This document shows, one piece after another, positions 5,817 through 24,477 of a stretch of 37,073 nucleotides of DNA (positions within the stretch are counted from its first letter, which is position 1; each line of letters begins with the position of its first letter). Location: NCBI RefSeq assembly GCF_014651635.1, contig NZ_BMXG01000029.1:1-37073 (forward strand), read 5' to 3'. This DNA comes from Cerasicoccus arenae (GTDB lineage Bacteria > Verrucomicrobiota > Verrucomicrobiia > Opitutales > Cerasicoccaceae). A program made the translations under genes and the position numbers. Under the pieces are notes generated by a model. It made no database searches, had not been told where the DNA came from, and saw only the letters and a list, made by a program, of their open reading frames with translations.

Positions 5817-6105
5817 GACTCAGGACCTCACCTTTAACGACCGTGTTGCCCTTTTCGCTATTGGCGCTTTGGACAATAATCAGGATGCGCCGGAAGGGGT
5901 GGATTTCGGGAATCGGGCCGGCCGTATCGCTGAAACGATAGAACCACGTTGATTTCCCGTTCGTGATCGTCGCTTCAAGACGCTTGTAGTTTTTGCCTTC
6001 CCAACTCTTGTCTTCGACCTTTACCGCGACGACCAGTCCTTTCAGGATTAGGCCATCATCAGCAAGGAGATTGTTGTTATCCGGTTTAGTTGTATTTTCT
6101 GCCAT
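5809..6105 (-). CDS. Probable ssDNA-binding protein (OB-fold, gp5-like position)
   Basis: A 98-aa protein: a disordered N-terminus (MAENTTKPDNNN), then a beta-rich stretch typical of an OB fold (LILKGLVVAVKVED, YKRLEATITNG, WFYRFSD, RRILIIVQSAN, NTVVKGEVL). Filamentous-phage and rolling-circle elements commonly encode a small ssDNA-binding protein right after Rep that coats the displaced strand. The assignment rests on that order, the size and the strand pattern, not on a firm motif. The start overlaps the last 58 nt of rep in another frame. Alternative: another small OB-fold accessory protein. Confidence 0.6.
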   Translation of the reverse strand: MAENTTKPDNNNLLADDGLILKGLVVAVKVEDKSWEGKNYKRLEATITNGKSTWFYRFSDTAGPIPEIHPFRRILIIVQSANSEKGNTVVKGEVLSHG

Positions 6106-6995
6106 TGTTCAATGCTTTCCATTATCTTAGCTGGTGTTAGATAGACACACAGACCCGACAGAGCAGCCTTGCCGCGAAGTGTGAGATTTACCCCTTTTTG
6201 GTAAAATTCGGTGTAGTGCGTCCGAAGCACTACGTAGATTGATTTGATCGGGTAATGGCACCGTTCATCACGGATGCAGACTTTCGCCTTACGCATCCAA
6301 ACGCGCCATTGTTGCCGGATGGTGCGCCGGATGTAGCTAAAGCGCTTCACCGTGCTTTTTTCCTGTGCAGGCTCATAGTATTCTTGGCCGTAGCAGCCCA
6401 CGCCGTAGCGTCCGCCTTCGAGCACATCCCAATCAGGGTCTTGCGTCTTGGTGTAGAAACCACCGCCCGTTTGCCAAAAGCGCATACGTCCGCCGTTTTC
6501 GTAGTCCAGGAGCCATTCAGGCAAGTTAAGCCCTTCCGAGCTATCGCCATCGAATGCGCCTTTGGAAACATACTTGAACAGGTAGCGAAATTTCTTGTAG
6601 CGGAGACGTTCAACGTTCGTCCGACCAAGGCCCCACCATTGACCAATCAGGCAAAGGCAGTCCCGAGGAATCCGCTTCTTGTAATGCACGATCAAGTGCC
6701 AATGCGCGTAGCCGTTATCCTGAAATTCCAGCTTCCACGCCCAAGGGAAAGGACCGATGACGTCACGCAACGCAGACAAGAAACGTCGAACTCGGTCCTT
6801 TCCCCGTTCGTATGCCTCCACGGGCTCGCCGATGATGGGGTCCAGCGTAAGCGTTAAAAATAAGCACTGCTTCCAAGGCGGTAGCCCCTTGCGCTCAATG
6901 GCGCGCCGCTTCAATTCGACACCGGAACGAGTGAACCAATTGGGCGCACTGTATGGCCGAACCTCTAACGTGGAATCGCGATGCTTCTTGGCCAT
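6048..6995 (-). CDS. rep: Rolling-circle replication initiator (HUH endonuclease)
   Basis: A 315-aa protein with the three HUH Rep motifs in order and spacing: motif 1 FLTLTLD (46-52), motif 2 HWHLIVHY (metal-binding H98 and H100) and motif 3 YLFKYVSKG (Y138-G146, with nucleophile Tyr138 or Tyr142 and Lys141/145). Such proteins nick one strand at a double-strand origin, bind the 5' end covalently and start rolling-circle replication. No helicase domain follows, so a host helicase is needed. The 110-residue basic tail may bind DNA. The start lies 2 nt after the stop of the preceding small gene, so translation is probably coupled. It implies that the excised element replicates as a circle through ssDNA. 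Confidence 0.9.
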   Translation of the reverse strand: MAKKHRDSTLEVRPYSAPNWFTRSGVELKRRAIERKGLPPWKQCLFLTLTLDPIIGEPVEAYERGKDRVRRFLSALRDVIGPFPWAWKLEFQDNGYAHWHLIVHYKKRIPRDCLCLIGQWWGLGRTNVERLRYKKFRYLFKYVSKGAFDGDSSEGLNLPEWLLDYENGGRMRFWQTGGGFYTKTQDPDWDVLEGGRYGVGCYGQEYYEPAQEKSTVKRFSYIRRTIRQQWRVWMRKAKVCIRDERCHYPIKSIYVVLRTHYTEFYQKGVNLTLRGKAALSGLCVYLTPAKIMESIEQWQKIQLNRITTISLLMMA

Positions 6996-8767: not shown

Positions 8768-9853
8768 CTAAGGGGATATTGCAAAGTATGCCTTGGCCTC
8801 TGCGCTCGATACTAGCTCGAAGTAAGCCGCGTAAATCATGTCTGGTGAGTTACCAGCTTCGCGTGACACTTGCCTTTCGTCTTCCACGATTGCCATTCGG
8901 TAGGAAATGAAGGAATGGCGGCAAACGTCTTCCTTCCATGTAACAGGGCAGAGGCGTCTTGCTTCAACGAATACGGGTGAATCTAAGCGATGGGGGCAGA
9001 GGGAGCCACTAAATGAGTTTAGCCATTTGGCTAGATTGGGAAGTAATGGAACGTTACGGCGCGCACGCCCTTTCATTTTGCCGCCATCAACTCGTATCGT
9101 TTTTTGACGTATGTCTTCGCGGTCCAGGTCGGCTATTTCTGATGGACGCAATCCAGCGAACAGGGAAAGCGCGAAATAAGGCACGAAAAGGCCGTCTCGG
9201 TGCTTTGCAATTCGTTCCATGAACACTGCCGCGTCATCTGCTTTCATGATAGCGGGCCGCTTTTTCGCGGTATCCCTTGGCCGTTCAACACGGGCAAGAG
9301 GACTCTGCTCGATCTGGCCGCGCTTCAAGAGGAAGTTGAAGAGGTTAGAAAAGGCGGCATAATCGTTAATCTGATTTCGGACGGAGCAGGGGCGATAAAT
9401 GTATTCCTGCAAATCTTGAGCGCCTACATCGTCAATGAGCTTTATCCCCGAATGTTCTGCGAAGTTCTTAAGGCGGCTTGTGAGATTCTGAGAAGTGCGC
9501 TCACTGACGCCTTGCCGCTCCCGAGCCTCAAGCAGAGAAAATACGGCATCTTTCCAAGTTAGAGAACTGCGCTTTCGGGTGTTCTTTTCAATGAATTCTG
9601 CCGCCTGATTGATTGTTAATCCGCGATCTTTGAGAATGAGTAAAAGATTCTGCAACTCGCGTCGTTCGCGTGGGCCAATGTGAACCCCTTCTGAACCTTC
9701 GCGAAACAGCTTCTTATTGAATTCTGCGGCATCAGTATCAGCTGAACTGCGGTCGTGGAAGTAGCGCCGATAAGGCTTAAAGCCCTTTCGCGAGAATTTC
9801 ACCATGAACGAATATCGCTCATGAGTAACCGGATATACCTTTGCTTCATTCAC
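8768..9853 (-). CDS. int: Tyrosine recombinase, integrase of the element
   Basis: A 361-aa site-specific recombinase. The N-terminal half holds an arm-binding region and a SAM-like core-binding domain (WKDAVFSLLEARERQG to about residue 190). The catalytic half shows Arg I in AGLRPSEIADL, the strand Lys in GGKMKGRARRNVPL, Arg II in CRHSFISYR and the nucleophile Tyr in IYAAYFELV. The usual first His and the H/W position are Asp/Val and Asn (EAGNSPD), as in other members of this subfamily that I recall. The GTG start at 9853 lies 47 nt from the att repeat, and TATAAA precedes it. Function: integration into and excision from the tRNA-Arg gene. No separate excisionase is recognised. Confidence 0.93.
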   Translation of the reverse strand: MNEAKVYPVTHERYSFMVKFSRKGFKPYRRYFHDRSSADTDAAEFNKKLFREGSEGVHIGPRERRELQNLLLILKDRGLTINQAAEFIEKNTRKRSSLTWKDAVFSLLEARERQGVSERTSQNLTSRLKNFAEHSGIKLIDDVGAQDLQEYIYRPCSVRNQINDYAAFSNLFNFLLKRGQIEQSPLARVERPRDTAKKRPAIMKADDAAVFMERIAKHRDGLFVPYFALSLFAGLRPSEIADLDREDIRQKTIRVDGGKMKGRARRNVPLLPNLAKWLNSFSGSLCPHRLDSPVFVEARRLCPVTWKEDVCRHSFISYRMAIVEDERQVSREAGNSPDMIYAAYFELVSSAEAKAYFAISP

Positions 9854-21286: not shown

Positions 21287-21712
21287 TTACTGCGCGATGA
21301 GCCGGGCAAAGGTCCGCCAAGGCAAGATTGCGCAGCGCACGCGGGCGGGAAATTGCCGGATGCCGCGCAGGGCAACGGCGTCGCCGAGGCCGTCCCAATT
21401 GTCGTCGTCGGATTCGCCCCTGAGCAGGGCCATGAACTGGTCCGCCTTCGCAGCGGCCTCGACGGTCGACTGCCCGGTCAGCGCCTCGGTCATCAGGGAG
21501 CACGAGGCCCGCAAAACGGCGCTACCCTCGGCGGTGAACCCCATCTCGGCAATCTGCCCCTCAGCCAGCCGCACGGTCAACCGCACGACATCGCCCGTGT
21601 CGGCGTTGCTACCCTCGGTGGCGAGGTCACACGGGTCCAGTAAGCCGTCACCTCGCGGGTGTTGGCCGTGGTCGAGCAGGATTTCGCGGTAAAGCTCGGG
21701 GTCGTCGGTCAT
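21287..21712 (-). CDS. sufU: SufU-like Fe-S assembly protein lacking two ligand cysteines
   Basis: 141 aa from ATG 21712. Clear SufU/IscU fold: LYREILLDHGQHPRG at the N-terminus, ASCSLMTEALTGQ in the middle, FPARVRCAILPW at the end. In standard SufU three Cys and one Asp bind Zn/Fe-S. Here the NPxCGD motif reads NADTGD (Cys to Thr, Asp kept), the GCAIS motif reads GSAVL (Cys to Ser) and only the last Cys (VRCA) remains; an extra Cys appears in RASCSLM. So it may be a degenerate or differently working sulfur acceptor. sufS lies 1.5 kb upstream on the same strand, with two unrelated genes between. Confidence 0.85.
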   Translation of the reverse strand: MTDDPELYREILLDHGQHPRGDGLLDPCDLATEGSNADTGDVVRLTVRLAEGQIAEMGFTAEGSAVLRASCSLMTEALTGQSTVEAAAKADQFMALLRGESDDDNWDGLGDAVALRGIRQFPARVRCAILPWRTFARLIAQ

Positions 21713-21819: not shown

Positions 21820-21825
21820 GGCCCA

Positions 21826-21912
21826 AAGGTGGAGCCCGGTGTCCCTACCGGGCTTTGCTGCCTCACTGCCAGCAGGCTGAAACGGCCCGGTAGGGACACC
21901 GGGCTCCACCTT
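21826..21912. repeat. REPIN-like palindrome with 27-bp perfect arms
   Basis: Left arm 21826-21852 begins AAGGTGGAGCCCGG; right arm 21886-21912 is its exact reverse complement; the spacer is 33 nt. Two inverted short repeats around a spacer is the layout of REPINs, which are mobilised by RAYT transposases. There is no U-tract, so it is not a simple terminator. Confidence 0.85.
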
Positions 21913-22029
21913 CGGAGTGATCGACTGAAAGGGGCTTGGGCAAAAATGTCCATAGGACCATTGGTCTGGTGATGGCAAGGCAAAGAGTCGGTGCAATGTG
22001 AATCGTCGCCTTCCTTGCTCAGCTGTTTA

Positions 22030-22527
22030 CTATTGGTCAACGGTGAAGATAACGTGACGCCCAGCTTTTTCTGCCTGGTCGAAAAATAATGGAAGGCCAG
22101 AATACCAGTCCCACGTATATTGGCAGTCTTCCTGACTCTTTCCGGTGCCATAGTCATCGGGTAACTCAGAGTAACGCTGTCCCATGAACTCTGCTGTGAC
22201 CCGCTTTAGACTGTCGGCCAATGTACGCAGCTTCTCGTGAGGAACAAGCGATACAATGTAATCTTCACCTGAATAAAGCTGCTCACCTCCCAAAATACAG
22301 AGTCGAAGCGGTTCTGTTCCGTTCTCGAACTCAAGGCGTCCGTCGGTAAGGCATCGGTGGATTGCATCCCATGCTTTATCGGTCTCGCAAACGAACCCTG
22401 CATCTTTTTCCCACCGTTCCTCGATCTCTTCCTGAATGATTTCGATAAGAGCTTCATCAGATTCAGCAGCACGCAATGCTTTCAGATCATCGTCAGTTAT
22501 AGCGAAGTGGACTCCTCGACATGCCAT
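22030..22527 (-). CDS. DUF1877 (YfbM-like) family protein
   Basis: 165 aa. The DUF1877 pattern is visible: ITDDDLKALRA at the N-terminus, the hallmark DKAWDAIHRCLTDG (D-K-x-W-x-x-L/I-H), LCILGGEQLY, IVSLVPHEKLRTLADSLKRV, and a C-terminal W-Y near GLPLFFDQAEKAGRHVIFTVD. A cytosolic protein of unknown function; members are often single genes of the accessory genome. It lies between the lipoprotein and SufU genes and is unlikely to belong to Fe-S assembly. Confidence 0.8.
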   Translation of the reverse strand: MACRGVHFAITDDDLKALRAAESDEALIEIIQEEIEERWEKDAGFVCETDKAWDAIHRCLTDGRLEFENGTEPLRLCILGGEQLYSGEDYIVSLVPHEKLRTLADSLKRVTAEFMGQRYSELPDDYGTGKSQEDCQYTWDWYSGLPLFFDQAEKAGRHVIFTVDQ

Positions 22528-22571: not shown

Positions 22572-23069
22572 TCAGCCGTTGCCGTCACTGATTGGTTTTC
22601 CCGAATTGATTTTCGCTTTTTCTTCTGGGGTAGTTGGCACTAATTTCAGCAGAATAGGCACTGAATTACCGTCCTTCTCATTGGTTGCAATTAGGATTTC
22701 TTTCGCGCCGGGGGTAATCTCAGGAAATTGGGTTCTCATTTGTATTCCCGTTGTGTCAAACGGCTGCTTAAATGATCCGATCGTTAGAGTGTCCGCTTCT
22801 AATCGAATAGCAACTGGGGCGGGGCTTTTGGTTGAGTTGACCCATACTTGGGGCCCTGCAACGTCTCCCTCGAACAACTGAAGTTTGAACTGATCCTTAA
22901 GGAAGACGTTCAGGATCATCCGATTTCCAGAGCTTTCCACGCTCAAGATGCCAAGGGGCTCCTCTTTGATTGATTGGGCAGCCGGCTCACTTGGGGATTC
23001 GCCGCAGCCGGTTAACCACATGGCCAGACAAGCAAATACTAGCAAAGGGAATTTTTTAACTATTTTCAT
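22572..23069 (-). CDS. Predicted lipoprotein
   Basis: 165 aa starting at 23069, fixed by a strong GGAGGT (23073-23078). A lipoprotein signal peptide, LLVFACLAMWLTGCGES, with lipobox LTGC, then a beta-rich domain of about 130 residues (SSGNRMILNVFLKDQ, VAIRLEADTLTIGSF, AKEILIATNEKDG). No family recognised. Probably anchored in the envelope; the function is unknown. Confidence 0.8.
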   Translation of the reverse strand: MKIVKKFPLLVFACLAMWLTGCGESPSEPAAQSIKEEPLGILSVESSGNRMILNVFLKDQFKLQLFEGDVAGPQVWVNSTKSPAPVAIRLEADTLTIGSFKQPFDTTGIQMRTQFPEITPGAKEILIATNEKDGNSVPILLKLVPTTPEEKAKINSGKPISDGNG

Positions 23070-23229
23070 GATTACCTCCGAGTAACAAGATATTGGTGGA
23101 TTTCTAGATGTTATACCAATTAGGATAATATCTAAATAGAATAGTGGCAATTGCCGTATCCAGTCAAATGAGATAACTTGCCAGAAGGCAATGCTAATGG
23201 ATGCGCTGGGTGGTTCGCGCTGGGGAGGG

Positions 23230-24477
23230 CTATCCGAGGAGCTTTTGGACTTTGCGGAGGCTGGCGGTGAGGGCGTCGACTTCGGCGAGGGTGTTGTAGA
23301 AGGCGAAGGAGGCGCGGGTGGAGCCTTCGAGGCCGAAGCGAGCCCAGAGGGGCATCGTGCAGTGGTGGCCGGTGCGGATGGCGATGCCGTCCACGTCGAG
23401 CATGGTGCCGATGTCGTTGGGGTGGATGCCAGCCAGGGTGAAGGAAATCACGCTGACCTTGTGCGCGGCTTCGCCGTAAATTTGGAGCCCGTCGATAGCT
23501 TGGAGTTGCTCGGTGGCGTAGGTGAGCAGCTCGTGCTCGTAGGCGGCGAGGGCTTGTTGGTCGAGGCCCATCAGGTATTCTGCGGCTGCGCCGAGGCCGA
23601 TGGCTCCGGCGATGTGGGGCGTGCCTGCCTCGAAGCGTTCGGGGATTTGGCGGAAGGTGGTCCCGGCAAAGCTGACGCGGTCGATCATGTCGCCGCCGCC
23701 TTGGTAAGGGGGCATGGCGTTGAGCAGATCGGGCTTGCCCCAGAGGACGCCAATACCGGTCGGGCCGCAGACTTTGTGGCCGGAAAAGACAAAGAAATCG
23801 CAGCCGAGCGTGGCCACGTTGACGGGGAAATGCGCGGTCGATTGTGCGCCGTCGATGAGCACGGTGATGCCCTTGGCCTTGGCCAGCGGGATGATTTGTT
23901 CGACGGGGTTAATCGTGCCCAGCGAATTGGAAACGTGGCACAGGGCGAGCAGCTTGGTGCGGCTGGTCAGCAGGGCAGGGAGGGCGTCGAGGTCGAGCTC
24001 GCCGCGGTCGTTAATCGGGATGACGGTCACGGTGGCACCGACTTGCTCGGCCAGCATTTGCCAAGGCACGATGTTGGCGTGGTGCTCCATTTCGGAGACG
24101 AGAATTTCGTCCCCCGCCCCGATGTGTTCGCGGCCCCAAGTCGCGGCAACGAGGTTGATCGCTTCGGTGGCGTTGCGGGTAAAGATGCAGCTGCGGGCCT
24201 CGGGTGCGCCGATGAAGCGTGCGACGGATTCGCGGGCGGCCTCGTAGGCAGCAGTTGCCTCTTGGCTGAGGGCGTGCACGCCGCGGTGGATATTGGCGTT
24301 TTCGGTGCGGTAATAGCGGTCGAGCCGTTCAATGACGGCGCGTGGCTTCTGCGAGGTGGCGGCGTTGTCCAGATAGACCAACGGGTGCCCGTTGACTGTC
24401 TGCCCCAAGATGGGAAATTCCGCCCGTACTTGTGCCACATCCCACTGCGACACCAAACTGTCCTTATCTAGAATCAT
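23230..24477 (-). CDS. sufS: Cysteine desulfurase SufS
   Basis: 415 aa, normal length for a group II (SufS/CsdA) desulfurase: it removes sulfur from L-cysteine with PLP and hands it to a partner for Fe-S cluster building. Seen are the N-terminal FPILGQTVNGHPLVYLDNAAT, TRNATEAINLVA, EMEHHANIVPWQ, the PLP lysine in FSGHKVCGPTG and the active-site Cys in RTGHHCTMPLW. The last motif is the SufS loop, which needs a SufE or SufU partner. That partner gene, a cysteine-poor SufU-like one, lies 1.5 kb downstream. No SufBCD is in the window. Confidence 0.96.
   Translation of the reverse strand: MILDKDSLVSQWDVAQVRAEFPILGQTVNGHPLVYLDNAATSQKPRAVIERLDRYYRTENANIHRGVHALSQEATAAYEAARESVARFIGAPEARSCIFTRNATEAINLVAATWGREHIGAGDEILVSEMEHHANIVPWQMLAEQVGATVTVIPINDRGELDLDALPALLTSRTKLLALCHVSNSLGTINPVEQIIPLAKAKGITVLIDGAQSTAHFPVNVATLGCDFFVFSGHKVCGPTGIGVLWGKPDLLNAMPPYQGGGDMIDRVSFAGTTFRQIPERFEAGTPHIAGAIGLGAAAEYLMGLDQQALAAYEHELLTYATEQLQAIDGLQIYGEAAHKVSVISFTLAGIHPNDIGTMLDVDGIAIRTGHHCTMPLWARFGLEGSTRASFAFYNTLAEVDALTASLRKVQKLLG

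Follow-up and report, generated by a model that had tools for sequence, protein, structure and literature searches.

A SufU-like protein lacking two of three zinc-ligand cysteines is conserved alongside SufE in the family of Cerasicoccus arenae

The sufU locus and the residues of its product

The DNA analyzed here, referred to as the window, comprises 37,073 nt of the forward strand of contig NZ_BMXG01000029.1 from Cerasicoccus arenae. A sufU-derived gene (21287..21712, minus strand) forms a full ORF ending in a stop codon and encodes a protein of 141 aa. On the same strand lies sufS (23230..24477), which encodes a 415 aa cysteine desulfurase of the SufS family (TIGR01979, 578.6 bits). Two ORFs, at 22030-22527 and 22572-23150, separate sufS from sufU; one encodes a DUF1877 protein (PF08974, 1.6e-26), and the other appears lipoprotein-like by eye and has no Pfam match. 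Approximately 20 bases separate the sufS match from the sufU match in two genomes of the same family (G004 and G006). A palindrome immediately upstream of sufU (21823-21915) has 31-nt arms that are 97% complementary and lie 31 nt apart. A 22-base piece of the arm has 22 copies in the genome (11 per strand, at most two mismatches), mostly as arm pairs, against 0 for the control; the palindrome is a dispersed REP/MITE-like element. Elsewhere in the window, ORFs at 6048-6995 and 8768-9853 encode an ORF2/G2P-type replication protein (PF23343, 3.3e-15) and a tyrosine-recombinase-like product (PF00589, slightly below the cut-off), which suggests an integrated single-stranded-DNA-phage-like element.

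Based on profile searches, the product of the sufU-like gene passes the equivalog cut-off of the SufU model (TIGR01994, 116.8 bits, 6.7e-34; cut-off 92.5), in agreement with the SufU-like identity proposed in a previous reading of the sequence alone. It also matches the Pfam domain NifU_N (1.2e-15), and the nearest solved relatives in a sequence search are SufU/IscU-type proteins of Thermus and B. subtilis. Although NifU_N is shared with the IscU/NifU scaffold, the protein fails the IscU model (TIGR01999, 28.6 bits vs a cut-off of 192.4), lacks two of the three cluster-ligand cysteines, and has ligand spacing of SufU length. A Pfam search with E values up to 0.1 gave no match to SufE (PF02657); a hidden SufE identity was rejected because NifU_N is the sole Pfam match at this level. 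The GCQSQ acceptor-cysteine loop of SufE is likewise absent from the sequence as read. A second, canonical SufU in the same genome was also rejected, as the genome (4.13 Mb, 97.6% complete) gave no NifU_N match other than the sufU-like gene.

Ligand positions are given in the numbering of B. subtilis SufU (Bs), and all codons below lie on the minus strand. In the alignment to the solved B. subtilis SufU, NADTGD lies opposite NPTCGD, such that Cys41, both zinc ligand and the known sulfur acceptor of SufU (PMC10216065 and PMC6006206), is replaced by Thr39 (ACG, 21596..21598). Similarly, GSAVL lies opposite GCSIS, with the zinc ligand Cys66 replaced by Ser64 (AGC, 21521..21523), and RVRCAIL lies opposite RIKCATL, with Cys128 retained as Cys127 (TGC, 21332..21334). 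Additionally, the motif RASCSLM contains a gained cysteine, Cys71 (TGC, 21500..21502), at Bs position 73. The alignment thus bears out the sequence-only reading in the loss of two of three ligand cysteines, the retention of the last one, and the presence of an extra one. That reading did not mention the fourth zinc ligand, Asp43, which is retained as Asp41 (GAT, 21590..21592). Consequently, the zinc set Cys41/Asp43/Cys66/Cys128 reads Thr, Asp, Ser, and Cys in the window protein.

The distance from Ser64 to Cys127, aligned to Cys66-Cys128, is 63 residues, which is the long spacing of the SufU type; the second and third ligands of SufU are approximately 20 residues further apart than those of IscU, according to PMC6006206. 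The same paper reports that substitutions of the zinc ligands disrupt zinc binding and that SufU requires zinc to boost SufS; therefore, the window protein is very unlikely to act as a classical SufU. A literature search, conducted largely outside subscription papers, found no report of a SufU without ligand cysteines.

The AlphaFold2 model, computed with 29 relatives, has a pLDDT of 92.7 and a pTM of 0.88, and places Cys71 in helix 65-78 and Cys127 in helix 122-140. Among solved structures, it is most similar to those of the SufU type (Z 20-24 for the crystal structures; 23.6 to 2qq4 and 23.5 to 6jzw), followed by IscU and then SufE (3g0m, Z 9.6), and the SufU fold is thus predicted to be kept, as had been assumed from the sequence. 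The protein shares with SufE/CsdE (PF02657) this distantly similar fold and the lack of a complete zinc site. In contrast to SufE/CsdE, it has neither the PF02657 match nor the acceptor-cysteine motif, and the genome has a separate SufE gene at another locus. An alphaproteobacterial NifU-like protein from Brucella abortus (5uft, Z 18.7) also combines a SufU-like fold with incomplete ligands; however, read by eye, it has the first two cysteines (KLCGS and KACALG) and lacks Asp43 and the third cysteine (RHAST).

SufS and SufE in the family and the order

The SufS of the window retains the catalytic Cys373 (23359..23361, minus strand), and its PLP Lys235 is present. In contrast, Asn354 (23416..23418, minus strand), 19 residues before the catalytic cysteine, stands where SufU-dependent SufS enzymes have the His that swaps onto the zinc of SufU. 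According to PMC10216065, His354 of M. tuberculosis SufS (catalytic Cys373) binds the SufU zinc, exposes the acceptor Cys40, and is essential, while E. coli SufS has Tyr at this position and passes no sulfur to M. tuberculosis SufU. For its ancestral SufS, PMC12803347 describes His349 as critical with SufU, vs Tyr345. The previous description of sufS as next door and normal therefore holds for Cys373 and Lys235 only: two ORFs intervene, and the enzyme cannot be called normal because the His needed for SufU is missing.

The family of the window is represented by 10 genomes of four genera (G000-G009). The SufS position of the zinc-swapping His is Asn in eight of them, Thr in one, and Ala in one. 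All 10 genomes carry a SufE match (PF02657), and each carries two SUFBD-core matches. In the window's genome, the single SufE match lies on contig C19 and has the motif GCQSQLWL. The sequence-only reading had considered a non-metal sulfur acceptor like SufE; this needs correction, since Cys41, one of the two missing residues, is the acceptor itself, and the genome encodes both a genuine SufE with the GCQSQ motif and a SufS without the His required by SufU. Compared with SufU of B. subtilis and M. tuberculosis (TIGR01994), the family protein has the same fold, length, ligand spacing, Asp43, and Cys128 and, in most members, the same link to sufS, whereas it lacks Cys41 and Cys66, has gained Cys73, is encoded with a SufS devoid of the His, and co-exists with SufE.

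PMC6006206 presents SufU and SufE as alternatives that tend not to occur together. In the relatives set, 31 of the 54 genomes (the window's own counted) have a clear SufE, two more with weak matches (G036 and G039) being counted apart, and a SufU homologue stands alongside the clear SufE in 27 of the 31 (G048 among them). The zinc-swapping His of SufS is present in all 13 readable SufE-less genomes (of 22) and lost in none; 7 of the 22 have no SufS row, and SufS was unreadable in G023, G049, and G068. Among SufE-bearing genomes outside the family, 40 of 48 readable ones keep the His, and the other eight have Ser, Asn, or Tyr. The residue two positions after the SufS catalytic cysteine, which is Met in E. 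coli SufS, is Met in 10/10 genomes of the family, in 10 of the 48 other SufE bearers, and in 0 of the 13 SufE-less genomes (Gln in 12 and Lys in one), all of these being comparisons between phylogenetically non-independent genomes. Ten further genomes of the order, kept out of the comparison with and without SufE, all have the His. Since 40/48 SufE bearers outside the family keep the His and only 10/48 have the Met, the presence of SufE alone does not force a switch of partner.

Four genomes of another family (f4: G012, G038, G053, and G081) and one of a further family (f12: G020) have SufE and a SufS in which the His is lost (Ser or Tyr). Their SufU is fast-evolving, with all four zinc ligands still present.

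Conservation and distribution of the variant

A homologue of the sufU-like gene is present in all 10 genomes of the family, and in each of them the pattern at Bs positions 41/43/66/73/128 is [TARL]-D-S-C-C. Position 41 is Thr in five proteins, Ala in three, Arg in one, and Leu in one, whereas the other four positions are invariant; Cys73 and Cys128 are the sole cysteines in 4/10 proteins. Assembly or sequencing error is very unlikely to account for the cysteine losses because 10 family genomes carry the same changes. The sequence-only reading had taken close relatives with all three cysteines as the mark of a decaying gene; Cys41 and Cys66 are missing in 10/10 genomes, and the proposal survived this check.

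To describe selection on the gene, dN/dS was calculated for nine chosen pairs of the 45 possible, over stretches of 141-148 codons that include a few codons ahead of the likely start. By the NG86 method, dN/dS is 0.17-0.36 for the SufU-like protein in eight of the nine pairs, with G004-G006 saturated, and 0.11-0.17 for SufS of the same pairs; by YN00, it is 0.10-0.17 for the SufU-like protein in five pairs. The sufU-like gene is thus under purifying selection that is weaker than that on SufS. Its dN exceeds that of SufS 1.5- to 3.8-fold in 9/9 pairs. Together with the loosening link to sufS, this faster change also fits a slowly fading gene, namely, a relic that SufE has made redundant, and four SufE-bearing genomes of the order (G025, G028, G044, and G046) gave no SufU match. 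However, none of the 10 matches contains an internal stop, dN/dS is far below 1, 29 positions are invariant across the family, the gained cysteine among them, and the profile score lies above the SufU equivalog cut-off. Decay was rejected as the main reading because the changes are common to all 10 genomes, internal stops are lacking, and dN/dS is low; as an account of the gene, a relic in slow decay is quite unlikely.

In eight of the 10 genomes, sufU and sufS share a strand and a contig and lie no more than about 2.2 kb from each other; the exceptions are G003 (separate contig) and G005 (opposite strands). This proximity is consistent with a docking or regulatory partner that keeps a surface for binding SufS or SufBCD, takes no part in sulfur chemistry, and adjusts the traffic through SufS-SufE. 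The replacement of Cys41 by chemically unrelated residues (Thr, Ala, Arg, or Leu) in 10/10 proteins is also what would be expected if chemistry at this position were irrelevant. Nevertheless, the former active-site pocket (Cys127, Asp41, and Arg124) is among the best-conserved parts of the protein, which would be needless for pure docking, and we regard this role as rather unlikely. Within the family, the mean entropy of the former active-site columns is 0.42 bits vs 1.21 elsewhere, and 1 of 20000 random column sets is as low; as the columns were chosen by hand and contain positions known beforehand to be invariant, this test is descriptive.

To survey the variant outside the family, a profile of the 10 proteins was run against 372 genomes of the order. 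It matched 256 genomes, with 201-223 bits for the family and at most 145 bits for all others. In a phylum sample of 387 genomes, five reached E <= 1e-40, a threshold set by us, and all five belong to the family. Moreover, among the matches listed from named bacterial and archaeal genomes, the best 80 loci by similarity read C-D-C-x-C in 79/79 readable cases, one being unreadable. Of the 90 SufU proteins of the order that were read residue by residue, 69 lie outside both this family and the second variant described below; they have C-D-C at positions 41/43/66 in 69/69 cases and Cys128 in 68/68 readable cases. Collectively, the variant was not found outside the window's family in the order, the phylum sample, or the best 80 named loci, which is no proof of absence, as 90 proteins of the order were read by residue. 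Elsewhere, Bs position 73 is a site of small residues (Ala, Ser, Thr, Gly, or Ile), and the one Cys there, in G068, accompanies a complete zinc site. Because the site is a variable small-residue position in other proteins, Cys71 may be a packing residue.

A second family (f2) has also lost ligands. In 11 of its 13 genomes read, out of a larger number with matches in the order search, the residues are T41-N43-S66-C128, with extra cysteines at 72 in 8/11 and at 45 in 9/11 variants; the remaining two genomes (G209 and G245) have a canonical SufU. The SufS His is retained in 11/11 genomes with this variant, and thus the two stripped families do not share the change in SufS. No SufE match was found in one genome of this type (G131, 88% complete), which counts against a simple rule that stripping follows SufE. 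In a maximum likelihood tree from which the trait columns were omitted, the two families lie apart, the second beside canonical proteins of family f14 (98/96); the tree contains long branches and leaves out the truncated G226, and an AU test does not reject a single clade of both families (p 0.348). Separate origins of the losses are favoured.

The stripped sufU of the second family lies in a conserved gene block in 10/10 genomes examined (L272-L281), beside a helicase-like gene. In nine of the 10, it directly follows a same-strand gene of approximately 179 aa, 0-7 bases away, whose product we take by eye to be dCTP deaminase-like.

The second family also bears on whether Asp41, Cys127, and Cys71, each invariant in 10/10 proteins of the window's family, form a zinc or iron site of new geometry, with a further ligand or one from a partner. 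The gain of one cysteine alongside the loss of two is compatible with such a site. However, within helix 65-78, Cys71 lies seven residues, or two helical turns, past the former ligand site, and it would therefore be expected, from helix geometry, at approximately 10 Å along the helix from that site. Furthermore, the second family has Asn in place of Asp in 11/11 variants and the extra cysteine at 72 in 8/11. A new metal site is accordingly improbable.

A possible zinc-free role beside SufS-SufE

The reading that we favour, with somewhat better than even confidence, is that the gene is a SufU derivative fixed throughout the family, in which the zinc site and the acceptor would have been dismantled after SufS switched from SufU to SufE. 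In this scheme, SufS would have changed partner and lost its zinc-swapping His once SufE was present. The zinc site and the acceptor cysteine of the released SufU would then have been dismantled, while Asp43 and Cys128 stayed and Cys73 was gained. SufS-SufE would carry the bulk of sulfur transfer, and the former SufU would be retained as a zinc-free thiol accessory of the SUF pathway. We infer this order of events, the share of SufS-SufE in transfer, and the zinc-free working of the former SufU from the distribution of residues and genes.

Because the zinc and acceptor residues are lost, yet the gene is intact beside SufE, the SufU-like protein probably has a different, metal-free role. As a tentative proposal, which we hold at a little below even likelihood, it may act without metal, through Cys127 with Cys71, as a thiol relay or an accessory in redox chemistry. 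Cys127, in the conserved former pocket (Asp41, Ser64, and Arg124), could carry a persulfide or react with the thiol of a partner, and Cys71 might provide a second thiol beside it. A broader and more speculative view, to which we give a rather low probability, is that SufU was remade as a metal-free thiol protein in two families after the capture of SufE. In both, the Cys128 end would be kept, position 66 would be Ser, position 41 mostly Thr, and a new cysteine would stand approximately two helix turns off. The two would then form a new sulfur-relay or redox-sensing class beside SufS-SufE.

The SufU label on the stripped proteins may misstate their function. Across the families of the order, the states seen are a full zinc site, loss of the SufS His, stripped ligands, and no SufU match; therefore, the replacement of a zinc-dependent by a metal-free transferase could be tested residue by residue. 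The worth of the finding lies in the coupled changes of SufS and SufE and in the natural series that these states form inside a single order.
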